Positions 17,650-55,000 of a DNA stretch of 64,000 bases are shown piece by piece. The translations under genes and the position numbers were made by a program. Source of the stretch: Flavobacterium hydrophilum (GTDB taxonomy: Bacteria; Bacteroidota; Bacteroidia; Flavobacteriales; Flavobacteriaceae); NCBI RefSeq assembly GCF_003202405.1, contig NZ_QJHL01000001.1, forward strand, positions 2,232,001-2,296,000, written 5' to 3'. Under the pieces are notes generated by a model. It saw only the letters and a program-made list of their open reading frames with translations. It had not been told where the DNA came from and did not search any database. How positions within the stretch are numbered: the stretch's first letter is position 1; each line of letters starts with the position of its first letter.

Positions 17650-17678
17650 ATTCTCATTTAAAATTAATCTTTGATAAC

Positions 17679-17737
17679 ACTTCAAATAATTTCATTAAAA
17701 ATAACAGCCATTTATAAGTAATAACATTATTTGAAGT
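17679..17737. repeat. Intercistronic inverted repeat between GH31 and GH43 genes
   Basis: ACTTCAAATAAT (17679-17690) is the exact reverse complement of ATTATTTGAAGT (17726-17737), with a 35-base AT-rich spacer. It could form an mRNA hairpin between cistrons. Confidence 0.65.
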
Positions 17738-17757
17738 ATATGCTTTTTATTCCAGGT

Positions 17758-20310: not shown

Positions 20311-20324
20311 AAATTTTAATTTTA

Positions 20325-20388
20325 AAACATCCCTAAAAAGCAATTTCTTTATAATTTGAACTTTTAAAGGGCATTTTTAGAGATGTTT
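20325..20388. repeat. Intercistronic inverted repeat between the two GH43 genes
   Basis: AAACATCCCTAAAAA (20325-20339) and TTTTTAGAGATGTTT (20374-20388) are reverse complements with one mismatch. The position directly upstream of the next cistron suggests an mRNA structure. Confidence 0.65.
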
Positions 20389-20427
20389 ACATTAACTTAA
20401 TTGTTATTTTTAAAACATGTTTTCACA

Positions 20428-22545: not shown

Positions 22546-22563
22546 AATTTCTACTGTTTGATT

Positions 22564-24885: not shown

Positions 24886-24933
24886 AATTTACTTCTTTAA
24901 GATTAATAACTAAACAATAAATGATGTAAAATA

Positions 24934-24978
24934 AAAAGCCTTAACCAAATCAATTTCAGTAGATTCAGTCAGGCTTTT
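24934..24978. repeat. Intercistronic inverted repeat between GH31 and GH76 genes
   Basis: AAAAGCCT (24934-24941) pairs with AGGCTTTT (24971-24978). The stem is short and GC-poor; it may be a weak terminator or a stability element. Confidence 0.5.
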
Positions 24979-24982
24979 ATGC

Positions 24983-29107: not shown

Positions 29108-29162
29108 AATTTTTTAGTTTTCATTTTTTCGAATTTTATAAAATCTCCAAGAGAATTTTTTA

Positions 29163-31487
29163 CTATTTTTTCAGGAATTTTTTGGTGATTTCTTTTCCGT
29201 CTTTATGTATCGTGATGAAATATATTCCTATTTCGAGTTTCGAAACATCCACACTGTTGTCGCTATCTACGCTTTGTTTCAACACCAAACTTCCTAAAAC
29301 AGAAAAAATGTTTATCTGAGAGCCTGTTATATCAGAATTGAAAAACAGTGTGTTTTGTGCCGGATTTGGATATAGATTTAAAGATGTTATTCCGTTATGT
29401 GTTTCCACACCCAATGATTCCACTTTTATTAATTTCCATTGGCCGCTAGCCTGTGAATTGACATCTTCCCATTGCTGAACATTTGCGCCATTTGCACTAC
29501 TAAAGTTGGATACCTCAACCAGTTTACCGCTGATTCTGGGTATAATTTTGTAATATCCGTCTCCTGTTGCCACCAATACAAACTGCTGGTTTGCAGTTGC
29601 GTTATATGGTGATTGGTTCACATTCGTACCATTATCTGTGTTGTAGTCATCGATATTCAATGATTGTCCACTGTGTTTTGCAATGATTTTGTACAAACCA
29701 TCTCCTAAATGTGTAAATGTAAATTTCTGGTTATCTCCAGCAGTTGCGGTACCTTGGGCTATATTACCACCGGTTGACATACTGGAACCGGATACTTCCA
29801 TGTTCAGTGCGCTATTACGATTTTGTAATTGATAAATTATATCTCCTAAACTTGTATCTCCGTTGGCTTGAACACGTAATGATGTTGTTTTATCGTTCCA
29901 GTCTGATGATAAACCAGTATCAGAAGTAAAGTCTTTTGACTGCCCGGTAAAATTATCTCCTTCATACAGTGTAACTTTAAAACCTTTCGATATTTTGAAC
30001 GAACTAATGTCATTGTCCGTAATCCCTTTTGACTGAAGTTGTGCCAAAGTATAATCTCCAATATCAAGAGCCACATTATAACCTGTAAAATTTACATTTT
30101 GAAAAACATTCATTACAGAACTATCAATAATTAAAGGATTTGTAACCGGAGGATTTGTATCTTCAATTTTTATTGACGAAATCCTGTCATTCCAATCGGC
30201 AAGCCAGGCGGTATTTGCCGTGAACGTTTTAGAAGCACCTGTGAAATTATCATTTTCATAAACGGTAACCACATAACCAGCGGGAACGGTTAAAGAAGTA
30301 ATGAAGTTATCAGGAGCACCTCTGGAAAGCAGCTGTGCCGATGTATAATTGCCCGGTGCAAGCTGCGAATAAAATCCGGCATAATTAATATCCTGATAAA
30401 CGTGTACTTTGTTTAAACTGGCAACAGATTCAAATAAATGAAGACCGCTTGTCTGAGTCGATAAATCAATCGATTCTGTTGGTAATTTCCGCCAATTGTA
30501 GTTCGTTAAATAATTAGATTTGCTTACTGCATTGTTCCAGGCATAATCAGCCGTATAATTAATGATTTGCAGATAATGTTCTTTTCTGGCCTGAGGAATA
30601 TTTCCAATACGAACAAATTCTATAAACCATTTTGCGAAAATTCCTTTGAATAAACCACCGTCTCCCTGCCCTGTTTCATTTAAGTAAAAAGCACCACCGC
30701 TATATTTTCTGTAATTCATCATAAAATCAGCAGCTTTCATACCATCCTCGATATAGGATTGCTGACCGGTAACAAGGTTAAGTTCCAGACAGGCTGCAAT
30801 AAACATTCCTGTGTTATATGAAAATTGCCAGTCAGGATCCTGATTTGTTGGAGAATCCCAAATTCCGCCCTGATCGTTAAGCACATTGGCTTTCATCCAG
30901 GCATGGATATCTTTTGCCATTTGCAAGTTTGAATTATCACCTTCTAATTGGTATAACTTCACAGCAATAACTATTGCGGGACCGTTGGCAATTGAGTTTT
31001 TACATGGAGTGCTGCATCCTTTTTTCCATGAAACAGCACCGTTTGAATATCCTGTTTTTATTTCATCCCATATTTGATGTACGGCATCAAGAAACTCAGA
31101 ATCTTTAGTGGCGTTGTAGCAATTAAAAGCAGCTAAACACAGCCATTCCAGGTCATCATAGTAATCATTACGATACGTTCCTGCAGCATATCTGTTATAT
31201 TTTCTGATTCCGGCAATGATACTTTTCATTCTGTCTTTGTAGACAACATTGCGGGTTCTTTGATAAGCATCTGCTAAAGTTTCCAGCGTATGTGCCTGTA
31301 TCCAATAGCCATAGCCATAAGGGTCATTATCTGAAGCACTGTTCAGTTTATAATAACTTTTATCAGCAGACATGAAAATAGTATTGGTTGCATCCTGAAT
31401 CTTATCTGCGCGCTGATCAGCTGTTTGTGCAGATAACTTTGCGCTCAATATCAAAAAGAACATCATCTTTATTACGTTTCTAATCAT
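29163..31487 (-). CDS. Secreted GH76 with beta/gamma-crystallin and ricin-type modules, second copy
   Basis: The 774-residue protein is a close paralogue of the one at 22564-24885. Signal peptide, GH76 domain with NDYYDDLEWLCLA (Asp111-Asp112), two crystallin-type units (about 362-539; VTVYENDNFTGASKTFTA and VTLYEGDNFTGQSKDFTS), ricin-type trefoil (546-682) and a T9SS type A tail (LNLYPNPAQNTLFF, ending KKFLKK) are in the same order. A short insertion precedes the second crystallin unit. The GH76 domains are much more alike than the ricin parts. It is the first enzyme gene after susE, 447 bases away, so it may have its own promoter. Confidence 0.93.
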   Translation of the reverse strand: MIRNVIKMMFFLILSAKLSAQTADQRADKIQDATNTIFMSADKSYYKLNSASDNDPYGYGYWIQAHTLETLADAYQRTRNVVYKDRMKSIIAGIRKYNRYAAGTYRNDYYDDLEWLCLAAFNCYNATKDSEFLDAVHQIWDEIKTGYSNGAVSWKKGCSTPCKNSIANGPAIVIAVKLYQLEGDNSNLQMAKDIHAWMKANVLNDQGGIWDSPTNQDPDWQFSYNTGMFIAACLELNLVTGQQSYIEDGMKAADFMMNYRKYSGGAFYLNETGQGDGGLFKGIFAKWFIEFVRIGNIPQARKEHYLQIINYTADYAWNNAVSKSNYLTNYNWRKLPTESIDLSTQTSGLHLFESVASLNKVHVYQDINYAGFYSQLAPGNYTSAQLLSRGAPDNFITSLTVPAGYVVTVYENDNFTGASKTFTANTAWLADWNDRISSIKIEDTNPPVTNPLIIDSSVMNVFQNVNFTGYNVALDIGDYTLAQLQSKGITDNDISSFKISKGFKVTLYEGDNFTGQSKDFTSDTGLSSDWNDKTTSLRVQANGDTSLGDIIYQLQNRNSALNMEVSGSSMSTGGNIAQGTATAGDNQKFTFTHLGDGLYKIIAKHSGQSLNIDDYNTDNGTNVNQSPYNATANQQFVLVATGDGYYKIIPRISGKLVEVSNFSSANGANVQQWEDVNSQASGQWKLIKVESLGVETHNGITSLNLYPNPAQNTLFFNSDITGSQINIFSVLGSLVLKQSVDSDNSVDVSKLEIGIYFITIHKDGKEITKKFLKK

Positions 31488-33134: not shown

Positions 33135-33151
33135 TTTAGTTTCGTTTTTAG

Positions 33152-38965: not shown

Positions 38966-39949
38966 TTATTTAATCTTATGAGATTTTACTCCTTCATTAG
39001 TTATAATAACAGGCTTTATAAAGCCATTTTCATCAAAATACATTTCTTCTATACACGTTTCTCTGGAATTTCCAAGTGTTTCGGTGAGTGGCCTTCTATG
39101 ATAAACAATAAAATATTTATCCGAATTAGGGTCTTTCATAATCGAGTTATGACCTGCTCCGTTAGCAATTTTAGAATCCTGTTCTAAGATTTTCCCAATT
39201 CTTTTGAATGGCCCCATTGGGGAATCTGCGATGGCATAGGCCACACAATAATCAGGTCCGGTCCAGCCTCCTTCAGACCACATGAAGTAATATTTGTTAT
39301 TTCTGATAAACATAAAAGGACCTTCAACATAGTTTTCAGGAGTGATTTCTTTAAAAACAGTTTTATCTTCAAAAGGTACAAAACCAGTAAAATCAGATTT
39401 TAATTTCGCAATATTACAATGCCTCCATCCTCCGTAAATTAAATAACATTGTCCGTCTTTATCCCTAAACACAAACTGATCGATTGGCTGTGCACCATTA
39501 TAAAATTTATCAACTAATGGTTTTCCAAGGTAATCTCTGTAAGGTCCTTCAGGTTTTGAAGCTACGGCAATACCAATTCCTCCTGTCTCGTTATCACTTT
39601 GAATATCATTAGCTCCAAAAAACAAGAAATATTTATTTTTATTTTTAATGATAGAAGGTGCCCACATTGCTTTTTTAGCCCATTTGACTGCTGTAGTATC
39701 CAAAATCCTGGAATGCTTTGTCCAGTTTACCAGATCTTTTGAAGAAAAAGCGTCCATAAAAATCTGATCTTCGTAACGTGCAGAAAATGTGGGGTAAACC
39801 CAATAGGTTTTATCAAAAATAATTCCTTCCGGATCAGCGTACCAGCCTTTGAATATGGGGTTGTTGTTTTTTGTATTATCCGAAATTATGGTTTGCGCAA
39901 TTGCCTTAGAGAAAGAAATCAGGGATAGCAAAAATAAAACTTGTTTCAT
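38966..39949 (-). CDS. GH43 glycosidase, single-gene transcript
   Basis: The 327-residue protein has a signal peptide (MKQVLFLLSLISFSKAIAQ) and a single GH43 propeller. WYADPEGIIFDKTYWVYPTF gives the catalytic base Asp39, QPIDQFVFRDKDGQ the modulating Asp and NYVEGPFMF the acid Glu. It lacks accessory modules and a T9SS tail, so it is likely periplasmic. It is related to, but clearly distinct from, the two ricin-bearing GH43 proteins. Its own promoter with an operator palindrome and its own terminator suggest separate control. Confidence 0.92.
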   Translation of the reverse strand: MKQVLFLLSLISFSKAIAQTIISDNTKNNNPIFKGWYADPEGIIFDKTYWVYPTFSARYEDQIFMDAFSSKDLVNWTKHSRILDTTAVKWAKKAMWAPSIIKNKNKYFLFFGANDIQSDNETGGIGIAVASKPEGPYRDYLGKPLVDKFYNGAQPIDQFVFRDKDGQCYLIYGGWRHCNIAKLKSDFTGFVPFEDKTVFKEITPENYVEGPFMFIRNNKYYFMWSEGGWTGPDYCVAYAIADSPMGPFKRIGKILEQDSKIANGAGHNSIMKDPNSDKYFIVYHRRPLTETLGNSRETCIEEMYFDENGFIKPVIITNEGVKSHKIK

Positions 39950-40295: not shown

Positions 40296-43200
40296 TTACT
40301 TTTTGATTATTTTATAAGAACCATTAGTTGAATCTGAATAAAAAATCTTAACTACATAAATTCCTGAGGTAAGTGAATTTACATTTACAGTATTAGAGTT
40401 AGCAACCGTTTTAACCAATCCTCCAAGCGCATTATAAACCTCTATATTCTTAATATCATTATCTCCAGAATCGATTGTAAGGATTTCATGCACCGGATTT
40501 GGATACAATTGTATTGTTTTATTACCGCTGTTAAAATCAATAGTTTTTAATGTTATTGCTGAGAAGTCAATTTTATTTGTGCTTTGGGCAAGATTTGCAA
40601 AAGTTGCTTCACCTGAAGCCGCTCCTCCATCAAGTGGTGCATACAACTCAAGACTTGATTTAAGCATTTTACCATTATTCATCGCTGTTATCTCTTCAAT
40701 ATTCATTCCTGATCTGTAGAAAAACCAGTTTTTATACTGAAGTGATGTTGGTGCATTTGCAGGATTTAGAGAAAATATTTTTGATTCTAATTTTTCATTA
40801 AGGCTTCCTAAAACTGCAGCATCTGAATAAAGGAATGTTGTTCCTCTGGCATAAAAATGAGTTAGCGTGATTTTGTGCCACTGGTTGTCATTTACAACAG
40901 TAGTTCCTGTGATTTTAGTTCCTGAAGGAGAAGTATAAACCAAATGTCCATTCGCATCGATAGCAATAGTACCAGCCGTTGTAGTTGTAGTAAAAGAGGC
41001 CAGATTACCTGTTGTATTTGTTTTAACATCAAACGATGTTGTAAAAGAATGTATCGTTTTTTCAGGTGTAAATTTTATTGCTCCGTTAGCAGCTGTATTA
41101 TTTATATTTAAAGGAGTTCCGGCAACAATTTGTGGTAATGACTTTCCTTGTTCTAAAGCGTCAAATAAGGAAGGAACCATTGCATAAAAGAATTCTGCAT
41201 GTCCAATATCATTTGGATGCAAGTCGTCAGATTTATATCCTGTTGCCCATCTGCCTGCCCCATTATCAATTGCTCCCAGAAGATTGATACTTGGCAAGTC
41301 CCATTCATGAATTAGTAAATTCATTTGCTTTATGAAATTATAATCAGCTGCATTATAGTCTTCACGAGTATAATTATTCATAATCACCGGAATCTTTCCG
41401 TTTTGTTTTGCCTTTGCAATCAGCAATTGCATATTAGTTTTAAACTGGTCAAACGCTGGCTGCCCATTTTCATGAATGCCTTCATTACCAAGAGAAAGAC
41501 CGTAAATCACATACTTGCTGCAATCCCCTATAAGATCTTTTTCGTATCGGTTTAGGAGACTAACCGTATTATTTCCATTTATGGCAATATTTGAAGTAGT
41601 AAATTTAGAACTTGTGCCGCTTGCAAAACGTTCTCCAAGTAACTGACCATATTGATAAGCATACCCTTGATTGTTAGTAGCGCCAAATCCGTTTGCTACA
41701 GAAGATCCCATTACAGATATCTCCAAATCATCTATGTCATCACATTCAATTGAATAGCTATAGTTACTTAAATCAAGTGTAATTTTAAATTTACCGTATT
41801 TAAGTCCAATATCTTCTGTTGGAACATTATAAGCCTGATACTCCGATTTTAGCATCACCGTATTAGTGGTGTTTTTAACTTTATGAAAAGAATAAGGCCA
41901 GTCACCATTCCCTTTGAAGCTGAAACGGGTATCGGTTTCACCATTGGAAACAGTCATATCAATTGTTTTTGACCAGACTCCGTTGCCTTGATAATCCAGG
42001 GGTGCTCCCTCAGCAATATTCCAGCCGCCTGCAATCATATTGGATGCTACAGCCCATCTTATTGGAACAATTGTGTAGGTATTCGTATTTAAATTTACAG
42101 TAATAAGTACTGTTCCTGTTTCCGTCGGATCAATTCCTGCTCCGCTTAAAGAAAGTGCTCCCGCTCCTGAACCTGCACCATAAAAAGCACCACCCGATTT
42201 AGACGTATAAAAGTTAATTGTCCCGTTTGCTTTTAACGAAGTATATATTTCAAAAATGTTTGTTATGTTTTTAGTAAGTCCCCTAACCATTCTCATAGGC
42301 AGAGCATCAACAATATTATCTCCTTTTTCTGTAGCCGTTCCTGAGAAAAACAATTCTGATATCTGATTAGACACGTTAATCGTTTTGGTAGCCGAAACTG
42401 AAGGTGTCAGCAAACTGGTTGCTGTCACTACTACCGACCCATTACCTGTAGGAGTAAGTAAGCCTGAGCTGCTGATAGTGGCAATATTAGCATTATCAAC
42501 TTTCCAGCTTACAGCAGATGAACTTGCGTTTGATGGCGTAACTGCAGCTGACATTTGTGATGTTTGTCCACTTGTTATGATGTCATTTCCTGTTATCTGA
42601 AGTGCAGTTACATGAATTACAGGAATATCGTATTCCTCTACTTTCATGGCGTTTATATAAGCAAAACCTCCGGTAACAATTGATAAGTCGATGATGATTT
42701 CTCCTGAAGCATTTGGAAATAATACACTTGTTTTAAGCACCTTATTTTTATTTCCGTCTGCACCGTCAGTTGTTACAAGCTGCCCTGTAAAAGAATTTGC
42801 TCCCGTAAAAACAAATTTAGATTCTCTTACAGCCTGACCAGATGCAACCCTTGATCCAAAAACATCAAATTTGTAGCCTTTTGAAGGAGATAAATTAGTT
42901 ATTTTAAGTTGTCCTGTGGGATTACTGCCTTCTGTGTAAAAATAATCTGAGGTGGCAGTTTTGATTGCCAGATCATCTAAATTAGCTGTTGTTGGCGTTA
43001 ATAGTCCATAGCTATCAGATGAATTTATTGAAAAATTATCCGTAACTGTAAGGGTATAACCTGTTGCCGTGTTGCTAGAGTTAACCAAAGTGGTCGTAGC
43101 TCCTACTGCTCCGTTTGTGGGGTTATTCCAATAGTGATTGTTTACATCAGGGCTTGGTGTTATTGCTCCATTATTACCACCTGTAGGTCCAAAATCTACA

Positions 43201-43883
43201 TACATACTTTGATTAACCGGAATATTGTATTCTTCCATCTTCATAGCATTGATATAGCCAAAATTTCCTGTGATAATCGACAAGTCAATAGTTATTACCC
43301 CTGAAGCATCCGGGAATAAAAGTGTTGTTTTAAGCGTTTTATTATTATTTCCGGTTGCAGTACCATCCGTTGTTACAAGCTGACCTGTAAAAGAATTTCC
43401 GCCTGTAAAAACAAATTTAGATTCTCTTACCGCCTGACCAGATGCAACCCTCGAGCCAAAAACACTAAACTTATAGCCTTTTGAAGGGGATAAATTGCGT
43501 ATTTTAAGCTGTCCTGTTGGATTAGAAGCCTCTACAAAAAAATAATCCTGAGTAGCTGTTCCGATTGCAAGGTCATCTAAATTAGCCGCCGTTGGTGATG
43601 CCGGTCCATAATTTATAGTAGAATTTAATGTAAAATTATCTGTAACTTCAAGTTTAAAACTTGTAGCCACATTACTGGCATTGGTCAAAGTGATATTGCT
43701 TCCTACACCTTCACTGGTTATATTATTCCAATAGTGACCGTTTGCATCAGGGTTTGGTGTTATTCCTCCCTGAGTTCCGCCTGTTGGGCCAAAATCGACA
43801 TAAAAACTCTGATTAAGAGTTTGTCCATTCAGATGGATAAATCCAAATAAAAGGTAAAATAATAAGAGTAATTTTTTTTTCAT
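40296..43883 (-). CDS. Very large secreted SGNH esterase with T9SS tail
   Basis: The 1195-residue protein has a signal peptide and two homologous N-terminal domains of about 195 residues (about 22-215 and 222-415). Each domain starts FYVDFGPTGG or MYVDFGPTGG and contains NLSPSKGYKFxVFGSRVASG. A Big_2-like Ig domain (420-505) and a SusE-like region (510-720) follow. The SGNH hydrolase (about 722-915) has VMGSSVANGFG (Ser728) and DDLHPNDIGH (Asp886, His889). A LamG-like domain and a T9SS type A tail (IQLYPNPVHEILTI, ending YKIIKK) complete it. It probably removes acetyl groups from the glycan at the surface; the ester is inferred. Confidence 0.88.
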   Translation of the reverse strand: MKKKLLLLFYLLFGFIHLNGQTLNQSFYVDFGPTGGTQGGITPNPDANGHYWNNITSEGVGSNITLTNASNVATSFKLEVTDNFTLNSTINYGPASPTAANLDDLAIGTATQDYFFVEASNPTGQLKIRNLSPSKGYKFSVFGSRVASGQAVRESKFVFTGGNSFTGQLVTTDGTATGNNNKTLKTTLLFPDASGVITIDLSIITGNFGYINAMKMEEYNIPVNQSMYVDFGPTGGNNGAITPSPDVNNHYWNNPTNGAVGATTTLVNSSNTATGYTLTVTDNFSINSSDSYGLLTPTTANLDDLAIKTATSDYFYTEGSNPTGQLKITNLSPSKGYKFDVFGSRVASGQAVRESKFVFTGANSFTGQLVTTDGADGNKNKVLKTSVLFPNASGEIIIDLSIVTGGFAYINAMKVEEYDIPVIHVTALQITGNDIITSGQTSQMSAAVTPSNASSSAVSWKVDNANIATISSSGLLTPTGNGSVVVTATSLLTPSVSATKTINVSNQISELFFSGTATEKGDNIVDALPMRMVRGLTKNITNIFEIYTSLKANGTINFYTSKSGGAFYGAGSGAGALSLSGAGIDPTETGTVLITVNLNTNTYTIVPIRWAVASNMIAGGWNIAEGAPLDYQGNGVWSKTIDMTVSNGETDTRFSFKGNGDWPYSFHKVKNTTNTVMLKSEYQAYNVPTEDIGLKYGKFKITLDLSNYSYSIECDDIDDLEISVMGSSVANGFGATNNQGYAYQYGQLLGERFASGTSSKFTTSNIAINGNNTVSLLNRYEKDLIGDCSKYVIYGLSLGNEGIHENGQPAFDQFKTNMQLLIAKAKQNGKIPVIMNNYTREDYNAADYNFIKQMNLLIHEWDLPSINLLGAIDNGAGRWATGYKSDDLHPNDIGHAEFFYAMVPSLFDALEQGKSLPQIVAGTPLNINNTAANGAIKFTPEKTIHSFTTSFDVKTNTTGNLASFTTTTTAGTIAIDANGHLVYTSPSGTKITGTTVVNDNQWHKITLTHFYARGTTFLYSDAAVLGSLNEKLESKIFSLNPANAPTSLQYKNWFFYRSGMNIEEITAMNNGKMLKSSLELYAPLDGGAASGEATFANLAQSTNKIDFSAITLKTIDFNSGNKTIQLYPNPVHEILTIDSGDNDIKNIEVYNALGGLVKTVANSNTVNVNSLTSGIYVVKIFYSDSTNGSYKIIKK

Positions 43884-43984: not shown

Positions 43985-44755
43985 TTAATTATTTGGGAAC
44001 TTATTATAATTTTTAACATAATCATCCCAAAGTTCATCGATAGTTTTATTTGTCTCTTTTTTCCAAATTTCGGATGTATAAGTACCGGTCCTGCATTTGT
44101 CATCTAGTATCTCAACTATGCCTCTTTTGAAGTTTTTATCCACCCAAAGTAAAAAACGTGCAGTCGTTCTGTACGATGCCTGGTATTTATTTCCTTTATC
44201 ATCTAATGTGCCCGGCAAAACCCAGCCACTTTCTGCATTACTCAATCCATATATTTCTCTTACATAGTCCGCAATCCCTTCTACAAGCCATCCGGGAGTA
44301 TTTTTACTTTCCGGATAAGCCTGAATTAAATGGAAACCTTCATGGACAATAACATCTATATCTTTATCCCTGACTGGTTTTGTGAAAAATTTTGTGAATA
44401 CGGTAATTTCATTATTAATAGCATGTGCCGGATGATCTGTATCTGCATCACTGAAGATTATAATAACACTTTTTGTTGCCTTTGGATTAAAATGCTCAAG
44501 CATTTTAGGATAGGCATCAAAGAAACGTTCCGCTATATTATTTTTAAATTCATTACTAAGTTTTGGATCACTATTTCTTACTGTCAGCTGATAACCGTTT
44601 TTAATTATAACACTGTCTTTTTCAATGAAGTTATTTGTAGCTAAGTTTGCTTTTATCCTATTATGATTACCATTCTTTTCTTCTTTAGAAATAGAGAATA
44701 ATGGCACCAAAAGAATTGAAAAAAGAAAACTCTTTGTATTAATTTTAAAATTCAT
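43985..44755 (-). CDS. Basic-secretory-protein-type metallopeptidase
   Basis: The 256-residue protein has an N-terminal signal peptide. VIVHEGFHLIQ is a zinc-binding HExxH motif (His138, Glu139, His142), followed by PGWLVEGIADYVREIYG, the signature of the plant/bacterial basic secretory protein family. Such proteins are putative metallopeptidases of unclear substrate. The gene lies between the GH31 and the SGNH esterase genes, on the same strand, with 70- and 101-base gaps. A role in freeing glycan from glycoprotein is possible but unproven. Confidence 0.85.
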   Translation of the reverse strand: MNFKINTKSFLFSILLVPLFSISKEEKNGNHNRIKANLATNNFIEKDSVIIKNGYQLTVRNSDPKLSNEFKNNIAERFFDAYPKMLEHFNPKATKSVIIIFSDADTDHPAHAINNEITVFTKFFTKPVRDKDIDVIVHEGFHLIQAYPESKNTPGWLVEGIADYVREIYGLSNAESGWVLPGTLDDKGNKYQASYRTTARFLLWVDKNFKRGIVEILDDKCRTGTYTSEIWKKETNKTIDELWDDYVKNYNKFPNN

Positions 44756-44825: not shown

Positions 44826-46991
44826 TTATTTTAAAGTAATCGTGATACCATCTTTAAGCGTACCCGAACCTGTATATATTTTACCGCTCAATATTAAACT
44901 TACATTTACTGCTTTTACATCTTCATTGCTATTTCTCTTGCCCTCAACATTAGAAACTCTCACAATAACAATATCATTTTTTTTCTCAGCCGAAAAAGTT
45001 ATTAGAGCATAATCCCCTTTTTGAAATCCAAATCCATCTCCGGAATCTAAATACAATTCCCCACTTGCTTTGCCTTCTTTATCAAGACAAACAAAAAGGC
45101 TTAACGGATCGAATGAATTCTCTCCTGCATTCTGAATCACTTTACCGGCAGGAATAATACTTCCGCCTCTGATACTTAATTTTGCCTGATATTTATCTGT
45201 CTTTTCTCCTTCAATAAGATTTAGTTCTTCCCATATTCCTGATGGAAGTACTGGATTTTTTGCAAATGCCGGAACCACCAAAAGATTTTCTCCTAATAAA
45301 AATGCCTGTTCCTCGGCTCTTAAACGTGAATCTTTAACGTCTGCAAAAAATACTGGCGACATAACGGGCATTCCTGTTTTAGAAGATTCATAAAAAAGGG
45401 TGTATAGATAGGGCAACAAGCGATAGCGTCTTTCTAAAGCAATTCGCGATGTTTTTTCTATTTCGGGACCGTAAGCCCAAGGCTCTTTATCATTTGTTCC
45501 TGCACAGGCGTGACCTCGTGCAAAAGGCATAAATGCCCCAAACCCAAGCCAGTTTGCCCATAGATCTCCGTCTGTATTTCCTAGAAAACCACCTATATCC
45601 GGACCACTGAATGGCTGCCCTGATAATCCGAGTGTAAGAGACATCGGTACAGATAGTTTCAGGTGATCCCAACCGGCATAATTGTCTCCTGTCCAGGTTG
45701 CGGCAAAACGCTGTCCTCCTAATAAATTTGACCTCGTTAAAAGAAATGGGCGCTTTTCAGGATTTGTTTTTAGAATCCCATCATAAGAAGCTTCCACCAT
45801 CAATCGGCCGTAAGCATTGTGATAAAGCAAGTGAGAACCCTGTGGTAAATTTCCGCCTCCTTTGTGCGGAGTGTCATAAGGCATTGTACCCAAGCGTTTA
45901 TCTTCAGGAAAATCATTATCATTTACGGCAGGCTCATTCATATCATTCCAGACTCCGTCAATACCTGTATTTAAAAAGTCTTTGTACAATCCTGCCCACC
46001 ATTTTCTTGTTTTAGGACTTGTAAAATCGGGAAATGCACAATCTCCCGGCCAAACTTTACCGTGATATTCTTCTCCGTTATTTTGCTGCACCCAAACATC
46101 ATTTTTTGAGCCGGACTGATAAACTGTATACTCTTTATCAACTTTAACTCCCGGATCTATCATGTAAATTGCCTTAAAGCCTTTTGAATGCAGATTATCA
46201 TTTAATCGTTTAGGATTTTCGAACCTGATACTGTCAAATGTAAAAACCCTGTATCCCTGCATATAATCAATATCCATCCAGATCACGTCACATGGAATTT
46301 TCTTTTCTCTGAAGTTATCAGCTATTTCCATAACACGTTTTTCACTGTCATAAGAGAATCGGCATTGGTGATATCCTAGTGCCCAACGCGGAGGCAATTT
46401 TATTGTTCCTGTTAATTCAGAAAGCCCTTTCATAACCTCCTGAGGCGATTTTCTGTCGATAATATATACTCTGAACAAAGCGCCCTCAGAATTATAAATA
46501 ATCTGATTAGAATTTGTAATTAGCTCTGCTTTCCATGTACTGTCAAAAATAATTCCGAAAGCAGACCCGTCAGGACGTACGCCCATAACCCATGGATGAG
46601 TCTGGTATAATCTTTTACCACCTTCTACACTGTAAGCACCTGTATCTGTATTCCATAATTTTATAGACTGACCATTACGCAATAATGGACCGGTAACTTC
46701 TCCTCCACCATATAAACTTATATCTCCTTTCAAATTTAAAACCGCACTAGCCTTATTATTTGCAAATGAAAATTCAGGGATTAAAGACCAGTCAGTTGGC
46801 ACTTTCCCCTTAGAAATTGGTTCAGATGCAAGAATCAAGGATGGTGTTTTGTTTTTATCAAATCCTTTAGGTACAAATTCTACTATGCGATTCCCTACTG
46901 CTGATTTTTTTTGCAAAGGAACCTGTTGTGCATAAATTGCCATACCTGTCGAAATAAAGAATATTGAAAATATTGTGGTTTTAAAATTCAT
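44826..46991 (-). CDS. GH31 alpha-glucosidase-like enzyme, periplasmic form
   Basis: The 721-residue protein has a signal peptide (MNFKTTIFSIFFISTGMAIYAQQ) and a single GH31 enzyme unit. GVWNDMNEPA carries the nucleophile Asp350 and TWTGDNYAGW the acid/base Asp436. It is closely related to the catalytic part of the 1374-residue GH31 at 24983-29107 but lacks the SusE-like repeats and the T9SS tail. It is therefore likely the periplasmic counterpart, acting on imported oligosaccharides. A CG-centred palindrome sits 51 bases upstream of the start. Confidence 0.93.
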   Translation of the reverse strand: MNFKTTIFSIFFISTGMAIYAQQVPLQKKSAVGNRIVEFVPKGFDKNKTPSLILASEPISKGKVPTDWSLIPEFSFANNKASAVLNLKGDISLYGGGEVTGPLLRNGQSIKLWNTDTGAYSVEGGKRLYQTHPWVMGVRPDGSAFGIIFDSTWKAELITNSNQIIYNSEGALFRVYIIDRKSPQEVMKGLSELTGTIKLPPRWALGYHQCRFSYDSEKRVMEIADNFREKKIPCDVIWMDIDYMQGYRVFTFDSIRFENPKRLNDNLHSKGFKAIYMIDPGVKVDKEYTVYQSGSKNDVWVQQNNGEEYHGKVWPGDCAFPDFTSPKTRKWWAGLYKDFLNTGIDGVWNDMNEPAVNDNDFPEDKRLGTMPYDTPHKGGGNLPQGSHLLYHNAYGRLMVEASYDGILKTNPEKRPFLLTRSNLLGGQRFAATWTGDNYAGWDHLKLSVPMSLTLGLSGQPFSGPDIGGFLGNTDGDLWANWLGFGAFMPFARGHACAGTNDKEPWAYGPEIEKTSRIALERRYRLLPYLYTLFYESSKTGMPVMSPVFFADVKDSRLRAEEQAFLLGENLLVVPAFAKNPVLPSGIWEELNLIEGEKTDKYQAKLSIRGGSIIPAGKVIQNAGENSFDPLSLFVCLDKEGKASGELYLDSGDGFGFQKGDYALITFSAEKKNDIVIVRVSNVEGKRNSNEDVKAVNVSLILSGKIYTGSGTLKDGITITLK

Positions 46992-47033
46992 ATTATAAAT
47001 TTTAATGTTATTATATTATTATAAGTTTAAAAA

Positions 47034-47055
47034 CAATTTTACTAAAACGTTTTAG
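47034..47055 (-). promoter_or_regulatory. Operator palindrome abutting a -7-like box upstream of GH31
   Basis: CTAAAACGTTTTAG (47042-47055) is a perfect 14-base palindrome. On the minus strand it is followed directly by TAAAATTG, one base from TAnnTTTG. This is the same arrangement as at 39978-39999. No convincing -33 box at the usual distance was found. Confidence 0.6.
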
Positions 47056-47166
47056 CAAATAAATACAAAGAAATTGATTCTACAAAATATTTTTATAAAA
47101 AATAAGTGTGGAATTTATTTTTTTACCGAACTATCTGGTATTTAAAGACTTCTGAAAATAAATAAA

Positions 47167-48351
47167 TTAAGGTTTTTCTGAAAATTTATAAACAGATACT
47201 GTATGATAAACTGTTTTGGGCTCTAATGTTATGGATGGAAAATTTGGTTGATTTGGTGCATCAGGAAAATGTTGTGTCTCTAAAGCAAAAGCTGTTCTGT
47301 AATCATCTTTTGCGCCGGATTTAAATGTATTTTTGCCTTGCATGAAATTACCACTGTAAAACTGAAAACCTGGTTCCTCAGTATAAACATTCATAACAAC
47401 GCCTGATAAATCTCCTGTTATTGAGCCTACATGTGCCATTCCGTTTCGCTTTTTGTTATTTAATACAAAATTATGATCGTATCCGCCTCCGTTTTCCAAT
47501 TGAACATTTTTCGTTTTTATACGCTCTCCAATTGTATGAGGAGTAACAAAGTCGAATGGCGTGCCTGCTACAGCTTCAATTTTACCTGTTGGAATTAAGC
47601 CTTTATCAACCGGAGTATATTCTTTTGCATTAAATTGCACCAGATGATTTAAGATCGTACCGCTTCCTTCTCCGTTCAAATTAAAAAAAGCATGATTGGT
47701 TAAATTCACAATCGTTGTTTTGTCGGTTGTTGCTTCGTATTCCATTTTCACTTCGTTATCAGTGGTCACACTATAAGTAACTTTTACTTTTAAGTTTCCG
47801 GGAAAACCCATTTCCATATCCGGAGAAACATAAGTAAAAACCAAAGTCTGGTCATTAATTTTTTCTGCATTCCAAACTACATCTTCGTATCCTTTCGTCC
47901 CGCCGTGCAAGGCATTTTCACCATTGTTAACCGGAATACTATAATTTTTCCCGTTTAAACTGAATTTTCCCTTTGCAATTCGATTACCAACGCGTCCAAT
48001 AGTAGCACCAAAATATTTCTCAGTTGAATTTTGATAGTCTTTAATGCTTTTAAAACCAACTACAACATCTATAAATTCGTTGTTCTTGTTTTTGACCAGT
48101 AAACTAACCAAACGGCCTCCGTAATTGGTAAAAGCAGCCTGGATATTTTTATTTTTTATCCAGTAAAGATTTACTTCCTTTCCGTCGATTTCTTTTTTGA
48201 AATCAATAGAATCAAGAGTTGCCGGTTTCAAATTCACATTTTCAGTTAGCGATTTGTTGGAGTTGTTGGAATTGTCACTTTGTTTCTTCTGACAAGAAAA
48301 TTGAAAAAACACCCCTAAAAGAAGAACACTGACTAATTGATTTTTTTTCAT
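47167..48351 (-). CDS. galM: Aldose 1-epimerase, lipoprotein form
   Basis: The 394-residue protein starts with a lipoprotein signal (VLLLGVFFQFSCQKK), then the mutarotase fold. Family motifs are NRIAKGKFSLNGKNY, NGENALHGGTKG, NLTNHAFFNLNG and VYTEEPGFQFYSGNFM, which carries the catalytic Glu. It interconverts alpha and beta anomers of released aldoses, here in the periplasm rather than the cytoplasm. It lies between a GH43 (18-base gap) and the GH31 gene, consistent with final sugar processing. Confidence 0.93.
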   Translation of the reverse strand: MKKNQLVSVLLLGVFFQFSCQKKQSDNSNNSNKSLTENVNLKPATLDSIDFKKEIDGKEVNLYWIKNKNIQAAFTNYGGRLVSLLVKNKNNEFIDVVVGFKSIKDYQNSTEKYFGATIGRVGNRIAKGKFSLNGKNYSIPVNNGENALHGGTKGYEDVVWNAEKINDQTLVFTYVSPDMEMGFPGNLKVKVTYSVTTDNEVKMEYEATTDKTTIVNLTNHAFFNLNGEGSGTILNHLVQFNAKEYTPVDKGLIPTGKIEAVAGTPFDFVTPHTIGERIKTKNVQLENGGGYDHNFVLNNKKRNGMAHVGSITGDLSGVVMNVYTEEPGFQFYSGNFMQGKNTFKSGAKDDYRTAFALETQHFPDAPNQPNFPSITLEPKTVYHTVSVYKFSEKP

Positions 48352-48369
48352 CGTTGTATGTTTTATTAC

Positions 48370-49422
48370 TTATTTCATTGCAGGAATAGCTATAGAAACT
48401 CCTTCTGACATTGGCTCACCAATAACAGGGTTTCCATTTTCATCCCATTTGATCTGCTGCATCCTTGGAGATCTTTGTACACCACATCCTTCACCCGGGT
48501 TAGAATTTGCATGGTATAAAATCCAGTCTTCTTTGCCATTTGGTGACTTAAAAAATGAGTTATGTCCCGGAGCATATACTTTTGTTTTATTTGATTGTTC
48601 CAAAATAGGCTTATCTGATTTTACCCATGCCAAAGGATCCAGCAAATTATTTTTTCCTGTAAAAGTTAGTAGTCCTAAACTGTAATTATCCGTCCAGCAA
48701 CCACTTGCCGAAAAAACAATGAATGCTTTATTCTTATGTGTCAGGAACTGAGGTCCCTCATTTACATTTACCTGCGGAGGATTTACATCATCATGCAGCG
48801 CACCATGTAATTCCCAGGGATTTGTTGGACTTGAAATTAGAACTCTGTCGCCGTCAATTTGAGTAGGATTTTTCATTTTGGCGATATAAATATTTTGTTG
48901 TCCATTAGTATCTCCTTCCCAGCCGGACCAAATCATGTATAATTGTTTTTTGTATGTAAAAATATTCCCATCAATAGCCCATTTATCTGTTTGTGCAGCA
49001 ATTTTCCCTTTAAAAACCCATTCCCCTTTCATTGGATCTTTTGAGTCGTTTTCTAAAACATACATTCTGTGTGTATTATTCGAACCATTATCTGCAGCAA
49101 AATATACATACCATTTGCTATTGATAAAATGAAACTCAGGTGCCCAAATTTCAGCAGAATAATCTGTGTTTGCCGGTGCAGTCCAAATGACTTTCTTTTC
49201 AGCATTTTGCAGATCGGCCAAATTTTTGGTTTTTAAAAGAACCAGATGATTTTGCATCGTATGAGTGTAGTAATAATAGCCATTATGATAGGTACTATAC
49301 GGATCTGCTCCGTAATCTAAAAGAGGATTGGTAAATGTTTGCTGTGCAGAAACTGTTTTGCTTACTAAACAAAACAGAATCAGTATTAGTGTTTGTTTGA
49401 ATATTGAATTATTTATTTTCAT
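48370..49422 (-). CDS. GH43 arabinofuranosidase-like enzyme
   Basis: The 350-residue protein has a signal peptide ending SKTVSAQ and one GH43 propeller. YGADPYSTYHNGYYYYTHT provides the base Asp, KWAIDGNIFTY the modulating Asp and NVNEGPQFL the acid Glu. This sequence group resembles exo-acting alpha-L-arabinofuranosidases more than the other three GH43 proteins here. It lacks a T9SS tail, so it is probably periplasmic. It is followed by galM in the same transcript. Confidence 0.9.
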   Translation of the reverse strand: MKINNSIFKQTLILILFCLVSKTVSAQQTFTNPLLDYGADPYSTYHNGYYYYTHTMQNHLVLLKTKNLADLQNAEKKVIWTAPANTDYSAEIWAPEFHFINSKWYVYFAADNGSNNTHRMYVLENDSKDPMKGEWVFKGKIAAQTDKWAIDGNIFTYKKQLYMIWSGWEGDTNGQQNIYIAKMKNPTQIDGDRVLISSPTNPWELHGALHDDVNPPQVNVNEGPQFLTHKNKAFIVFSASGCWTDNYSLGLLTFTGKNNLLDPLAWVKSDKPILEQSNKTKVYAPGHNSFFKSPNGKEDWILYHANSNPGEGCGVQRSPRMQQIKWDENGNPVIGEPMSEGVSIAIPAMK

Positions 49423-49513
49423 TATAATTATTTTTATGAGCAGTTTTGAGGCTTGTAATTATTGTGTTGTTTTATTGATTCTTTCAGATAGATTGTATTA
49501 AAAATCAAATTAC

Positions 49514-49531
49514 CGGGATAAAATAATCCCG
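49514..49531 (-). terminator. Short hairpin between the GH5-like and GH43 genes
   Basis: CGGGAT and ATCCCG form a perfect 6-base stem with an AAAATA loop, followed on the minus strand by GTAATTTGATTTTTAAT. It may cause partial termination inside the operon. Confidence 0.5.
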
Positions 49532-49588
49532 ATAACTTGCATCACATAAACAACTAACCACAGTTTATCTTTAATTTTTTTATGCTTT

Positions 49589-50755
49589 TTATTTAGAATT
49601 TACTTCGGCTGTAATCTTTTTTATAAAATCTGTTTCTGTTTTTTTATATGGAGTTCCATCCGCATTAAATACCTCATGGAACCATACAGGCGGTGCTGAA
49701 GTATATTTTTTTGTCCAGCTGTCCCAGGGAAATTTAGTTTGTGTTTTCCCATCTACTAAGCCCCAGTTCATCATGGCAATTTTATTTTCTTTGGCGATTG
49801 GCAAAAATCCTTCAAAGGTGCTGCCGTTTGGTCTTGCCATGTATTCGGTACATAACAATGGTTTTCCGTAACGCTTCAGCTCATTGATTCTTTTTGTAAA
49901 GTCTGCTGGTTTGTCATAACAGTGAAAAGAAATAACATCTGATTGTTCCAGTTGTAATTTAAAAATAGGTTTCATCTCTTTTTCAGACCAGTCACCTGCC
50001 CAGACTCCTGATGTTAAAGGTTGTGAAGGATTGCTTGAACGTGCCCATTGAAAAGCCTTTTTCAAAAGATTATAAGTTAGTTCTTCTTTATTAGCAGTTT
50101 CTACTTTTACATAAGCAGGCCTGTTCATATTGTCCGGCTCATTCCAGACATCCCAGCCTAAAATTCGATTATCATCCTTAAAGTGCGCTATTGTTTCTTT
50201 AATGTACTTTTCTAAACGGGGAGTTTGTTTTTCATCTAAAAGTGCTTTTTGTCCCGGTGACTGCACCCAACCCGAATTGTGCAAAAATGGCTTAGGAGCT
50301 CTTTGTTTTCCTGATACCGGAAACGGGTCCCAACAAGAATCAAACAAAACGAATAATGTTTTGATATGATGTTTATCAGCGATAGTCAAATATTCATCCA
50401 TTCTTTTATAAAATCCTTCGGCATCATCTTTATGAAGCAAATCATGAAGATAAACGCGCATCACATTCATTCCTATGCTTTCTGCCCAGCCTAATTCCTG
50501 ATCTATTTTTTTAGGATCAAATGTATCTTTCTGCCACATTTCTAACTGGTTAATGGCATTACCGGGTGTGAAATTAGCCCCTACAAGCCACGGCTGTTTT
50601 GCATACCATGTATTAGCTTTCTCTTTTGTCCAGATTGTTCTTTCAGTAACAGAAGTTCCGGTAGGGCTTTGATCGGTTTTAACTTCATTTTTGCTTTTAT
50701 TACAGCTAATTGTGAGTACCGAAAATAAAGCAATAGCTATTAATTTATTTTTCAT
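49589..50755 (-). CDS. GH5-like (clan GH-A) glycosidase lipoprotein
   Basis: The start at 50755 gives a 388-residue protein with a lipoprotein signal ending LTISCNK. The barrel shows IGMNVMRVYLHDLL, the acid/base motif ILGWDVWNEPDN and the nucleophile motif KPLLCTEYMARPNGS, typical of clan GH-A. It most resembles GH5-type proteins often annotated as xylanase or cellulase-like, but the substrate here is unknown and may be a beta-linked part of the glycan. It would be membrane-anchored. It is the second gene of the operon starting at 51652. Confidence 0.85.
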   Translation of the reverse strand: MKNKLIAIALFSVLTISCNKSKNEVKTDQSPTGTSVTERTIWTKEKANTWYAKQPWLVGANFTPGNAINQLEMWQKDTFDPKKIDQELGWAESIGMNVMRVYLHDLLHKDDAEGFYKRMDEYLTIADKHHIKTLFVLFDSCWDPFPVSGKQRAPKPFLHNSGWVQSPGQKALLDEKQTPRLEKYIKETIAHFKDDNRILGWDVWNEPDNMNRPAYVKVETANKEELTYNLLKKAFQWARSSNPSQPLTSGVWAGDWSEKEMKPIFKLQLEQSDVISFHCYDKPADFTKRINELKRYGKPLLCTEYMARPNGSTFEGFLPIAKENKIAMMNWGLVDGKTQTKFPWDSWTKKYTSAPPVWFHEVFNADGTPYKKTETDFIKKITAEVNSK

Positions 50756-50848
50756 TGTAAAAAGGTATTTTGATTTTAAGCTTTGGAAATCCATGATTAA
50801 ATTCCAAAAGCTATAATGTTTAATATGAAAAAGGTATATTTTAAAAAT

Positions 50849-51652
50849 TTATAAATCTTTAGCTGCCTTTTTGATTAAAACCGCCATATACGAATTTATT
50901 TCTCGTGTAGTTAAAGCTTCCTGCCATGCTTTTTGGTCTGCTTCGGAACGCAGGGTATTATAAGTATTAGGACTTCCGTACAGCTGATTAAAGTCTTTAA
51001 ACTTATCCAGAGAAACATGCGAGATTCCACTATTTAAAGCATTTCCTTTGGGAGTTATCACTTTCAGTAAACTCCAGCTGCCAGTTCTCCCTGCATCTAT
51101 TCTATTTTGCCATTCGGGTTTAAAGATTTTTGATTCTGCATTTTCATATTTTGTATAATTATTTGGACTTACTTTCATAAAATTTATTGCCATTACATTT
51201 CCTAAAGACATATTGAATTGTCCTTTTGTCTGGTCAATTTGCTCCATAAAAAATGTTTCAGTCAAATCCCTGCTTTGAAGAGATTCGGTTCTTTTTGATA
51301 CTAAATCTGCTTCAGACATAGTGGGGAATGCTCTTTTGGCAATGGTTAAGAAACTCTCGCCTGGACCGTCCTGAAACATTTTGATTGGGTCATCAAAAAC
51401 CTGAATCGTTACATATTGATTGTTTTGATTCTCACCTCCAGGCTGCAAACGCCAAAGCTGCCATCCTAATATCGCACCGCTTTTAATGCGTTGATCGTGT
51501 ATTTTTTCCCAAAAACTCTCCGTTTCAAGATAGGCTGATTCTTGTGCCGGAGCCACTTTCATAAATTGAACTAATAAATATGTTTTTTTTTGAGCAATCG
51601 CATTACTCACACAAATAAGAGCTGTTAAAAACAGAAGTATTTTTTTCATCAT
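50849..51652 (-). CDS. Secreted duplicated alpha-beta protein of unknown function
   Basis: The 267-residue protein has a signal peptide (MMKKILLFLTALICVSNAIAQ). Two halves resemble each other: TYLLVQFMKVAPAQESAYLE with WQLWRLQPGG (about 24-75), and VMAINFMKVSPNNYTKYENA with WSLLKVITPKG (about 152-205). This looks like a tandem dimeric alpha-beta barrel fold, but I do not recognise a named family. It leads the upstream PUL operon and has the second copy of the conserved 138-base block 206-343 bases upstream. It could bind a ligand or an intermediate; its function is unknown. Confidence 0.75.
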   Translation of the reverse strand: MMKKILLFLTALICVSNAIAQKKTYLLVQFMKVAPAQESAYLETESFWEKIHDQRIKSGAILGWQLWRLQPGGENQNNQYVTIQVFDDPIKMFQDGPGESFLTIAKRAFPTMSEADLVSKRTESLQSRDLTETFFMEQIDQTKGQFNMSLGNVMAINFMKVSPNNYTKYENAESKIFKPEWQNRIDAGRTGSWSLLKVITPKGNALNSGISHVSLDKFKDFNQLYGSPNTYNTLRSEADQKAWQEALTTREINSYMAVLIKKAAKDL

Positions 51653-52098: not shown

Positions 52099-55000
52099 AT
52101 GCAAAGATTTTTCAAAATAGGGACACTCGCTTGTCTTATGTTTTTGTCAATTACAGTTTTCAGTCAGGAATATTATTTTAAACATTATAAGGTCGAAAAT
52201 GGTATGTCTAACAATTCTGTTTTAGCCTCGATTCAGGATAAAGATGGATTTTTATGGTTTGGCACCAAAGATGGTCTGAATCGTTTTGACGGATATCATT
52301 TTAAAACATTTCGAAGTGGAGCAAATCCTAAAACATCCTTAGGAATAAACTACATTCAGTCGCTGCATGAATTCAAAAATTATATTTGGGTTGGAACTGA
52401 CAAAGGATTGTATTCTTATGATAAAAAGTTAGAGAAATTTACTTTTTTGAATGAGGCAATAAATAATCGTATTAACGATATTGACAATGATCTGAAAAAT
52501 AACTTATGGTTTATTTCTATTGGAACGCTGGTCAAATATAATGTTGACACAAAAGAGACTACTCTTTTTGACAGAAATTCCTTTTATGCCACTTCTATTA
52601 CCTGTGATAAAAATGGGGTAATCTGGGCATCATCTTATGATGATTTATATCGCTATTCTGAAGCGACTCAAAGTTTCGATAAAATTAATGTACAGTTGCC
52701 TAACAGTACTTTTTCGATTTCAGTCATTTATGCATTAGATGCCAATTCAATTTTGATTGGCACAAGAGATCACGGTATTTACAAATACGATGTGTCAAGT
52801 GGAAAAACATCTCCTTTTATTAACGGTTCCGAAAGACCAATTTTTGTCAGACAATTTAAAAAAAGCAATCAAAATGAAATATGGATTGCAAGCGAATCAG
52901 GTGTTTATATTTATAATTTAAAAAATAAAACGATCCGGAATTTACGTAAAAGTGCGAGTGATCCTTATGCCATTTCAGACAATGCAGCGTATTGCATTAC
53001 GATTGACAAAGAGAATGGTGTCTGGATTGGAACTTATTTTGGCGGCGTAAATTACCACCAAAAACAATACGATCAGTTTAAAAAATATTTTCCGCGCAAA
53101 AGTGAAAATGCAATAGTTGGAAGTGCCGTTCGCGAAATTCACAAAGACAACCAGGGAAATCTTTGGATTGGTACCGAAGATGCCGGAATTAATAAATTCA
53201 ACCTTAAGACGAAGAAATTTGTTAATTTCCAGCCTAACGGAACAAAATCAGGGCTTTCTTTCTATAATATACATGCTGTTTTACCACGAGGAAATAAAGT
53301 CTGGATAGGAACTTTTGAACATGGATTAGATATAATGGATGCCAATACCGGAAACGTTATAAAACATTATGACCTTAATTCAAGTAATTTAAGAAGTAAC
53401 TTTATAATTACGTTTTATGAAACTCCTGAAAAGAAATTATACGTTGTAACCTCATTGGGTATCTATTTATATGATGAGCAAAATGATGATTTCAAAATTT
53501 GTGACGAGTTCTCCCAATCCACTCATTACACCTGTATGTTTAAGGACAGAGAAGGAAATTTATGGGCAGGATCCTATAGAGACGGGCTGTTCTTCTACAA
53601 TTCAAAAACTAAAGAGAAAGCAGTTTACAGACATGATTTAAAAGATGATAAAAGCATTAGTAATGATTTTATCACATCAATCTTTCAGGATCAACAGCAT
53701 AACCTTTGGATAGCAACCGAAAATGGCCTGAATTTATTTGATACCCGAAAAAAACAATTCAAAAAATTTACCACTAAAGAAGGATTTCCAAGCAATGTAA
53801 TTTACTCTATTCTACAGGATGAAAAACAGAATTTATGTATTACCACTTCAAAAGGATTGGTCAAATTTAACTATAAAACAAAAGCAGTAAAAATCTTTAC
53901 TACTGCAAACGGATTGTTGAGCGATCAGTTTAATTACAGCTCGGCTTTTAAGGATTCCAATGGAGATATGTATTTTGGTAACCTAAATGGTATGATTAGT
54001 TTTAATCCTAAAAATTTCAGTACTTATAAATACAATCCTCCCATATTTATTACCGGACTTCAGATAAATAATCAGGATGTTGTGGTAAATGATGACGATT
54101 CTCCGCTGGACGAATCTGTTTCTTTTATTAAAAATATTACTTTAAAAAATCATCAGTCAAATTTTAACATTGATTTTGCTTCGTTAAGCTATACAGCTCC
54201 TGAGCTTACAGAATATTGGTATAAACTGGACGGCATTAGTGATGATTGGGTGTATTTGAATAAAAATAATAAAGTGTTTTTTACAGAACTCCCTTCGGGC
54301 GATTACAAATTCAGGGTTAAATCTCTAAGTGCCGGTGGTATCTGGAGCAAAGAAGCTGTAGTTGGAATTACCATTTTACCGCCATTTTGGGCAAGTACCT
54401 ATGCCTTTATTCTTTATTTTTTAATAATAGCAGGATGCCTTTACTGGCTTTTACGCAGGTATCACAACATGAATGTTAAGGAAAACAATCAAAAAATTGC
54501 AAATCTTAATAACGAAAAAGAAAAGGAAATCTATCATGCAAAAATTGAATTTTTTACCAATGTTGCCCATGAAATACGAACTCCTTTAACTTTAATTAAA
54601 AGTCCCTTAGAAAGCTTGTTAAAAAAATCCTACGAGTCTCCGGAAATTCTGCCCAATTTATCAATAATGGAGAAAAACACCTCCCGCCTACTCAATTTGG
54701 TTAACGAATTGCTTGATTTCAGGAAGACAGAAATGGAAGGAATGGGGCTTACTTTTGTGGAAACAAATATATCAGCATTAGTAAAACAATTACAATCGCA
54801 ATTTACCCCTCTAATTGAAGAAAAAAGCATTCATTTTGAATTAGAACTGGGTGAAAAAAACATTTACGCTTTTGTTGATGAAGAAGCAATTCGAAAAATT
54901 CTGAGCAATTTAATCAGCAATGCTATAAAATATGCAAAAAGCGAAGTATTTATTACATTATTCAGGGATGAAGATTCTTTGGAATTTATCATCAAAAATG

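Follow-up and report, generated by a model that had tools for sequence, protein, structure and literature searches.

The protein encoded on the minus strand at 40296..43883 of a 64,000-nucleotide stretch of the Flavobacterium hydrophilum genome (contig NZ_QJHL01000001.1, positions 2,232,001 to 2,296,000; the whole stretch is hereafter the window) is an SGNH esterase that carries two homologous N-terminal domains, D1 and D2. This twin domain has a malectin-like fold according to its structural model and forms a separate sequence family, absent from the Pfam and NCBIfam copies searched, since the model matches the malectin fold while profiles join it neither to Malectin nor to AGA-YXIM_GBD. It is worth a family entry: the sequence family is new, although both the type of module and the type of enzyme that bears it are known. 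The twin domains are most likely a malectin-fold carbohydrate-binding module (CBM) pair from a widespread sequence family, and the SGNH esterase most likely removes O-acetyl groups. In the reading that we favour as reasonably probable, the protein is a polysaccharide O-acetylesterase that is secreted by the type IX secretion system (T9SS) and anchored through a bivalent malectin-like module to an acetylated glycan of fungi or lichens.

Organization of the esterase

The gene and its parts are as follows.

40296..43883, minus strand: T9SS-secreted SGNH esterase, whole gene (1195 aa, ATG start, uninterrupted)
43821..43883, minus strand: signal peptide, residues 1-21, judged by eye from the sequence
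43230..43814, minus strand: malectin-like domain D1, residues 24-218, with the invariant W52
42633..43214, minus strand: malectin-like domain D2, residues 224-417, with the equivalent W252
42369..42614, minus strand: Big_2 Ig-like domain, residues 424-505
41742..42368, minus strand: SusE-like domain pair, residues 506-714
41118..41720, minus strand: SGNH (GDSL) esterase domain, residues 722-922, with G726-S727-S728, G770, N800, D886 and H889
40569..41057, minus strand: LamG-like region, residues 943-1105, sub-threshold here and above cut-off in the homologue L018
40299..40508, minus strand: T9SS type A sorting domain, residues 1126-1195

The original prediction had described two homologous domains of about 195 residues, each starting xYVDFGPTGG, ahead of Ig-like, SusE-like and SGNH domains, and this layout is confirmed throughout. 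FYVDFGPTGG starts at residue 27 in D1 and MYVDFGPTGG at residue 227 in D2; the two domains share 74% identity over 195 residues (BLASTP, E 2e-104) and 78% at the DNA level over 578 aligned bases. The Big_2 profile matches residues 426-490 (E 2.7e-8), and the SGNH profile PF13472 matches residues 725-896 (E 5.6e-11; 43.7 bits against a cut-off of 32.9). Residues 510-716 show 35% identity over 211 residues (E 4e-31) to a SusE-family protein encoded elsewhere in the same genome. The sorting domain (TIGR04183) scores 42.6 bits against a cut-off of 23. The LamG-like region, absent from the earlier domain list, reaches an E of just 0.11.

A malectin-like fold outside the catalogued sequence families

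D1 was modelled by AlphaFold2 with a 75-row alignment, giving a confident model (pLDDT 94.3, pTM 0.91). In VIA-align this model is closest to the C-terminal module of a B. uniformis glucuronidase (Z 13.2, rmsd 2.8, 151 aligned), followed by the plant receptors ANXUR and FERONIA (Z 11.6-12.5, the highest being ANXUR2), the N-terminal module of the SGNH esterase YxiM (2o14; Z 12.4, rmsd 2.5, 134 aligned) and human malectin (Z 11.0, rmsd 3.4, 152 aligned). The rows after this malectin-like group, CBM61 and CBM35 among them, have Z scores of 9.4 and lower.

At the level of sequence families the picture is different. D1 and D2 have no Pfam or NCBIfam match above a curated cut-off, and no Pfam or NCBIfam family is common to a diverse set of 75 members; Malectin (PF11721/CBM57) is not among the matches listed for them (25 of 27 families, E<=1). 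AGA-YXIM_GBD (PF21254) shows no sequence match to the twin domain, and its one sub-threshold match in the same genome lies elsewhere. A direct profile comparison (hhalign) gives the domain a probability of 1.2% against 20 malectin sequences and of 0.5% against AGA-YXIM_GBD, represented by three sequences. Malectin and AGA-YXIM_GBD, two reference families of the same fold, are likewise linked at just 19.6%, so the failure of hhalign says little about the fold. The malectin set was drawn from 25 loci, of which 22 were extracted (L110, L118 and L119 were too short) and 20 kept after L106 and L108 were dropped.

Fibronectin-type modules were the other known kind considered. FN3 (PF00041) reaches a best E of 0.004 and is found in 5 of the 75 members at E<=1; its matches, to the strand around residues 116-158, are sub-threshold. 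When the 75-row profile was searched against PDB sequences, the only matches were short fibronectin-type ones of about 20 positions. These matches would agree with the twin domains being FN3 or other known modules that were overlooked. FN3 domains are about 90 aa long; the twin domain, with 195 residues and a strand plan unlike FN3, has no such match above the curated cut-off in D1, and its top VIA-align rows are malectin-like. We consider this explanation very improbable.

The original prediction had called the domains of unknown type, had proposed structure prediction as a check, and had named assignment to a malectin-like or FN3 module as grounds against novelty. The prediction has now been run and yielded a known fold with no link at the sequence-family level. 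Because the model is malectin-like, the objection foreseen holds for the fold; it holds neither for the sequence family nor for FN3, and "unknown type" thus remains apt for the family, to which no Pfam or NCBIfam entry corresponds, and not for the fold. The suggestion that the domains may be new CBMs survives in the same divided form: the family is uncatalogued, and its fold and gene company fit a CBM, yet the fold itself is already known as malectin-like.

Among known systems, Malectin/CBM57, exemplified by the C-terminal module of Bacteroides beta-glucuronidases, shares the modelled fold over most of the domain and is likewise appended to a carbohydrate-active enzyme; it differs by showing no Pfam or profile-profile link and only 6-11% identity in the structural alignments. 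The available text of PMC6351562 describes the BdGUS module as CBM57 and one CBM in BuGUS. In the YxiM/YesT-type esterases of carbohydrate esterase (CE) family CE12 a galactose-binding-like module (PF21254) likewise precedes the SGNH domain, and YxiM is described as having an appended CBM (PMC9487903, available part). These enzymes have one module instead of two, and Big_2, SusE-like, LamG and T9SS parts are not described for them in the text available.

Conserved residues and repeated duplication

Since the DFG and PDxNxYW peptides served as search patterns, their conservation is inflated; they match 74 of the 129 copies known from the searches described below, and residue counts were therefore made on the other 55. 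Here Trp52 is present in all 55 copies, Tyr137 in 54, Asn179 in 52 and Asn53 in 51, and all four residues are kept in both window copies. In a tree of 85 copies, D1 and D2 are mutual nearest relatives (support 0.95), as are the same-protein copies in Pedobacter (1.0), Hymenobacter (0.80) and locus L054 (0.69). Six Chitinophaga-type proteins go back to one common older duplication (0.99). These cases are the cleanest among 29 two-copy proteins, the rest being deeper or poorly supported.

Repeated doubling would fit selection for two binding sites, and the twin domain is probably sugar-binding. Malectin itself binds glucobiose by an aromatic/Asp site. Malectin-like folds also occur in the ectodomains of the plant receptors FERONIA and ANXUR, which stand high in the structure list, and many copies of the domain are embedded in adhesin-like repeat proteins, as might be expected if the twin domains bound no sugar and had a structural role instead, keeping the SGNH domain in position as spacers or stabilisers. 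Against such a role speak the repeated tandem duplication, the invariant Trp and nearly invariant Asn, and the presence of the domain on a SusE/F-type surface protein of a polysaccharide utilization locus (PUL), and we regard it as improbable.

Distribution and architectures

Three close copies of the domain, used as queries against GTDB genomes, retrieved 73 loci. Iterated profiles on these, on the window and on loci from further genome searches count 129 domain copies in 82 proteins from Bacteroidota, Verrucomicrobiota and Planctomycetota. The distribution is patchy, with copies in 12 of 395 genomes of a phylum sample (profile, E<=1e-6) and 4 of 299 genomes of a genus sample, the window's genome being included in both. 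Elsewhere in the window's genome, contig C27 encodes a 989-aa protein of like architecture; it carries the only other copy of the domain there, which is 60% identical.

Under a strict rule, the domain and SGNH are fused in 50 of the 73 loci. The fusions measure 825-1953 aa (median 1049.5), which does not bear out the earlier statement that known esterases of such length are few. The domain lies before SGNH in 45 of them, after it in three and on both sides in two, and 31 carry at least two copies. SGNH is encoded in another gene of the locus in three of 73 cases, or in six loci under a laxer rule. Other settings include single-domain PEP-CTERM proteins (L051, L061), a GH99-dockerin protein (L072; GH, glycoside hydrolase) and large FN3 or PKD proteins (L008-L010, L063). 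In B. acidifaciens the domain forms the C-terminus of a DUF5016-DUF5125-DUF5121 surface protein of the SusE/F type. Its place is likewise at the end of a DUF5125-DUF5121 surface protein in B. congonensis, and a Phocaeicola metagenome-assembled genome (MAG; L029) has a shortened version of this arrangement. In all three the next gene encodes a domain-SusE-like-SGNH-LamG esterase. A domain of at least three phyla, present on dozens of secreted esterases and on SusE/F-type surface proteins of gut Bacteroides, is absent from the Pfam and NCBIfam versions used.

The highest number of copies among the 45 genomes of the neighbourhood test below is found in the Bacteroidales MAG G684 (L014, L015, L059), with 15 copies at E<=1e-20 on several contigs. 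Two loci labelled as a Streptomyces griseus MAG and Saccharibacteria (L082, L084) encode domain proteins resembling those of Bacteroidota and PEP-CTERM bacteria, and are probably mis-binned contigs.

Against the viral models of BFVD, the three top matches of D1 (window 43227-43817) are phage proteins with query template modelling (TM) scores of 0.62-0.69, and a Vibrio phage tail-fibre protein is among the matches (0.69). One genome of another family in the phylum holds stand-alone 206-aa copies (L007 1396-2016 and L012 1462-2082); the small genes ahead of them resemble phage or virion genes by eye, and PHROGs is silent on the domain proteins. A phage origin of the domain was rejected: these structural matches exist, but tblastn of a phage collection with D1 and with the stand-alone L007 protein gave no match, and PHROGs gave none to D1 or D2, its rows for the 1195-aa protein covering Big_2 and residues 834-858.

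Catalytic domain and proposed mechanism

Residues 505-935 were modelled at a pLDDT of 88.8. The closest solved structure to the catalytic domain is the acetyl xylan esterase PbeAcXE (7tog/7toh), presumably a member of CE20 (Z 23.0, rmsd 2.1, 189 aligned, 19% identity), followed by a polyvinyl alcohol esterase (Z 21.8) and further GDSL esterases; Foldseek also matches CEX (6hfz), an acetyl-mannan esterase (E 1.1e-7). PbeAcXE and CEX are the nearest solved catalytic relatives, and no malectin-like pair is reported in the entries listed. All 39 sequences compared keep G-S-S (726-728), G770, D886 and H889, and nearly all keep N800.

In the favoured reading, the esterase would leave the cell by Sec and T9SS. 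Ser728, Asp886 and His889 would hydrolyse glycan esters as the enzyme stays attached to the glycan through the avidity of D1 and D2, to which the two SusE-like units and the LamG-like region would contribute. A polysaccharide of fungal or lichen type would most likely lose its O-acetyl groups in this way and become open to cutting by the glycosidases of the PUL.

GH30 neighbourhood and the candidate glycan

The gene company of the family allows a concrete ligand to be proposed. SusC, SusD, GH30 and GH3 adjoin the pair of surface protein and esterase in B. acidifaciens, B. congonensis and the Phocaeicola MAG. The paralogue on C27 (locus L123) sits with SusC, SusD, SusE and GH30; GH30 and GH3 are both present in locus L028, and GH30 alone in L123. 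All four GH30s tested have the endo-1,6-beta-glucanase BT3312 (5ngk) as best match: that of B. acidifaciens at 1003 bits, those of the Hymenobacter and Pedobacter loci at 294 and 314 bits, and that of the paralogue's locus at 282 bits, the next match being 152.

For a neighbourhood test, 47 of the 73 loci were reduced to 45 genomes, the window's included. In 16 of them a GH30 gene is found no more than 25 kb from the domain, against 1.26 expected by random placement, and simulations reach 7. Counted by genes, 36 of 96 GH30 genes are near the domain, 28 times random placement (five second halves of split matches were dropped and tandem domain rows merged for the fold-enrichment). GH43, taken as a control for general clustering, is near the domain with 8 of 150 genes listed, or 3.7 times random. 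The SusE-like part of the esterase resembles the SusE of the GH30 locus in the same genome, whereas the SusE encoded in its own PUL gives no match.

The published beta-1,6-glucan locus (PUL1,6-beta-glucan, BT3309-BT3314) resembles those of the relatives by its BT3312-like GH30, GH3, SusC/D and DUF5016-type surface protein, as far as the available text of PMC5481569 describes it. The pustulan used in that study is given there as about 2% O-acetylated, and pustulan-type glucans with O-acetyl groups have been published for Umbilicaria lichens (cited in the available parts of PMC5172621 and PMC3875497). The words "esterase", "lipase" and "GDSL" are absent from the main text of PMC5481569, and the accessible portion of PMC10449523 mentions esterases in general, neither SGNH nor GH30. 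Literature searches returned no paper on malectin with SGNH in Bacteroidetes, on DUF5125, on malectin with PUL and esterase, or on GH30 with SGNH, Bacteroidetes and glucan. CBM92 is likewise tied to beta-1,6-glucan enzymes and binds multivalently; it differs by a beta-trefoil fold with three sites in one module (PMC11039641, available part).

A tentative and rather doubtful extension is that the twin domain founds a new malectin-fold CBM family mainly recognising (O-acetylated) beta-1,6-glucan in Bacteroidota, and that the attached SGNH enzymes are the missing O-acetylesterases of pustulan-type glucans, with a new carbohydrate esterase activity that would extend the known beta-1,6-glucan PUL. 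The testable gain of the finding is its connection with beta-1,6-glucan loci. Should the substrate be a pustulan-type glucan, a deacetylation step would be added that the main text on the published pathway does not mention, and this would, if true, bear on the use of fungal and lichen cell walls by gut and soil Bacteroidota.

Several findings weigh against the favoured reading. Foldseek alone gives the domain low TM scores in the PDB, 0.16-0.43 of the query. The domain is not specific to esterases, since under the strict rule an SGNH partner is missing from 20 of the 73 loci, including those of single-domain PEP-CTERM proteins and of FN3/PKD proteins rich in repeats. Hymenobacter accounts for six of the 16 genomes with a GH30 link, and the independent lineages are therefore fewer than 16. 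Finally, the window's own PUL differs from the published locus in that no GH30 (GH30_3) or GH3 was found among its scanned genes, so beta-1,6-glucan is suggested through the relatives.

The PUL of the window is composed as follows.

14404..31487, minus strand: GH31, GH43-ricin x2, GH76-ricin, GH31, GH76-ricin
31935-33224, minus strand: SusE
33152-35053, minus strand: SusD
35064-38207, minus strand: SusC
38966..39949, minus strand: GH43, the next gene downstream of the esterase
43985..44755, minus strand: BSP-family peptidase (PF04450), the next gene upstream, between GH31 and the esterase
44826..51652, minus strand: GH31, aldose 1-epimerase, GH43, GH5-like and one unassigned gene
50849-51652, minus strand: 267-aa gene at the head of the PUL strand, no Pfam match at 1e-5
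52099..56049, plus strand: hybrid two-component sensor/regulator (HTCS), divergent

The gene run thus totals two GH76, four GH43, three GH31, a GH5-like enzyme, SusC/D/E and HTCS. GH76 is the classic fungal alpha-mannanase family. This run, together with the Foldseek match to CEX, would suit a module and esterase that target acetylated alpha-1,6-mannan-containing or another heteroglycan, the GH30 link of the relatives then reflecting other specificities of the same scaffold. At the same 25-kb distance, GH76 is near the domain in 4 of the 45 genomes against 0.97 expected; this enrichment is weak (simulations reach 6) and far under that of GH30, and the SusE-like part resembles the SusE of the GH30 locus and not that of the own PUL. 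We consider a mannan or heteroglycan target unlikely. With four of 45 genomes, GH76 was rejected as a general partner of the domain. One might guess that a fungal or lichen heteroglycan would unite the GH30 and GH76 pictures. In our favoured reading of an O-acetylesterase held on its glycan by the twin domains, a fungal substrate related to beta-1,6-glucan or alpha-mannan would be expected.

Two genomes of the genus have a gene for a DUF6377 protein (PF19904) immediately next to that of the domain-SGNH esterase (L123 9340-10983 and L124 7107-8780); this protein is perhaps a regulator of the adjoining esterase.

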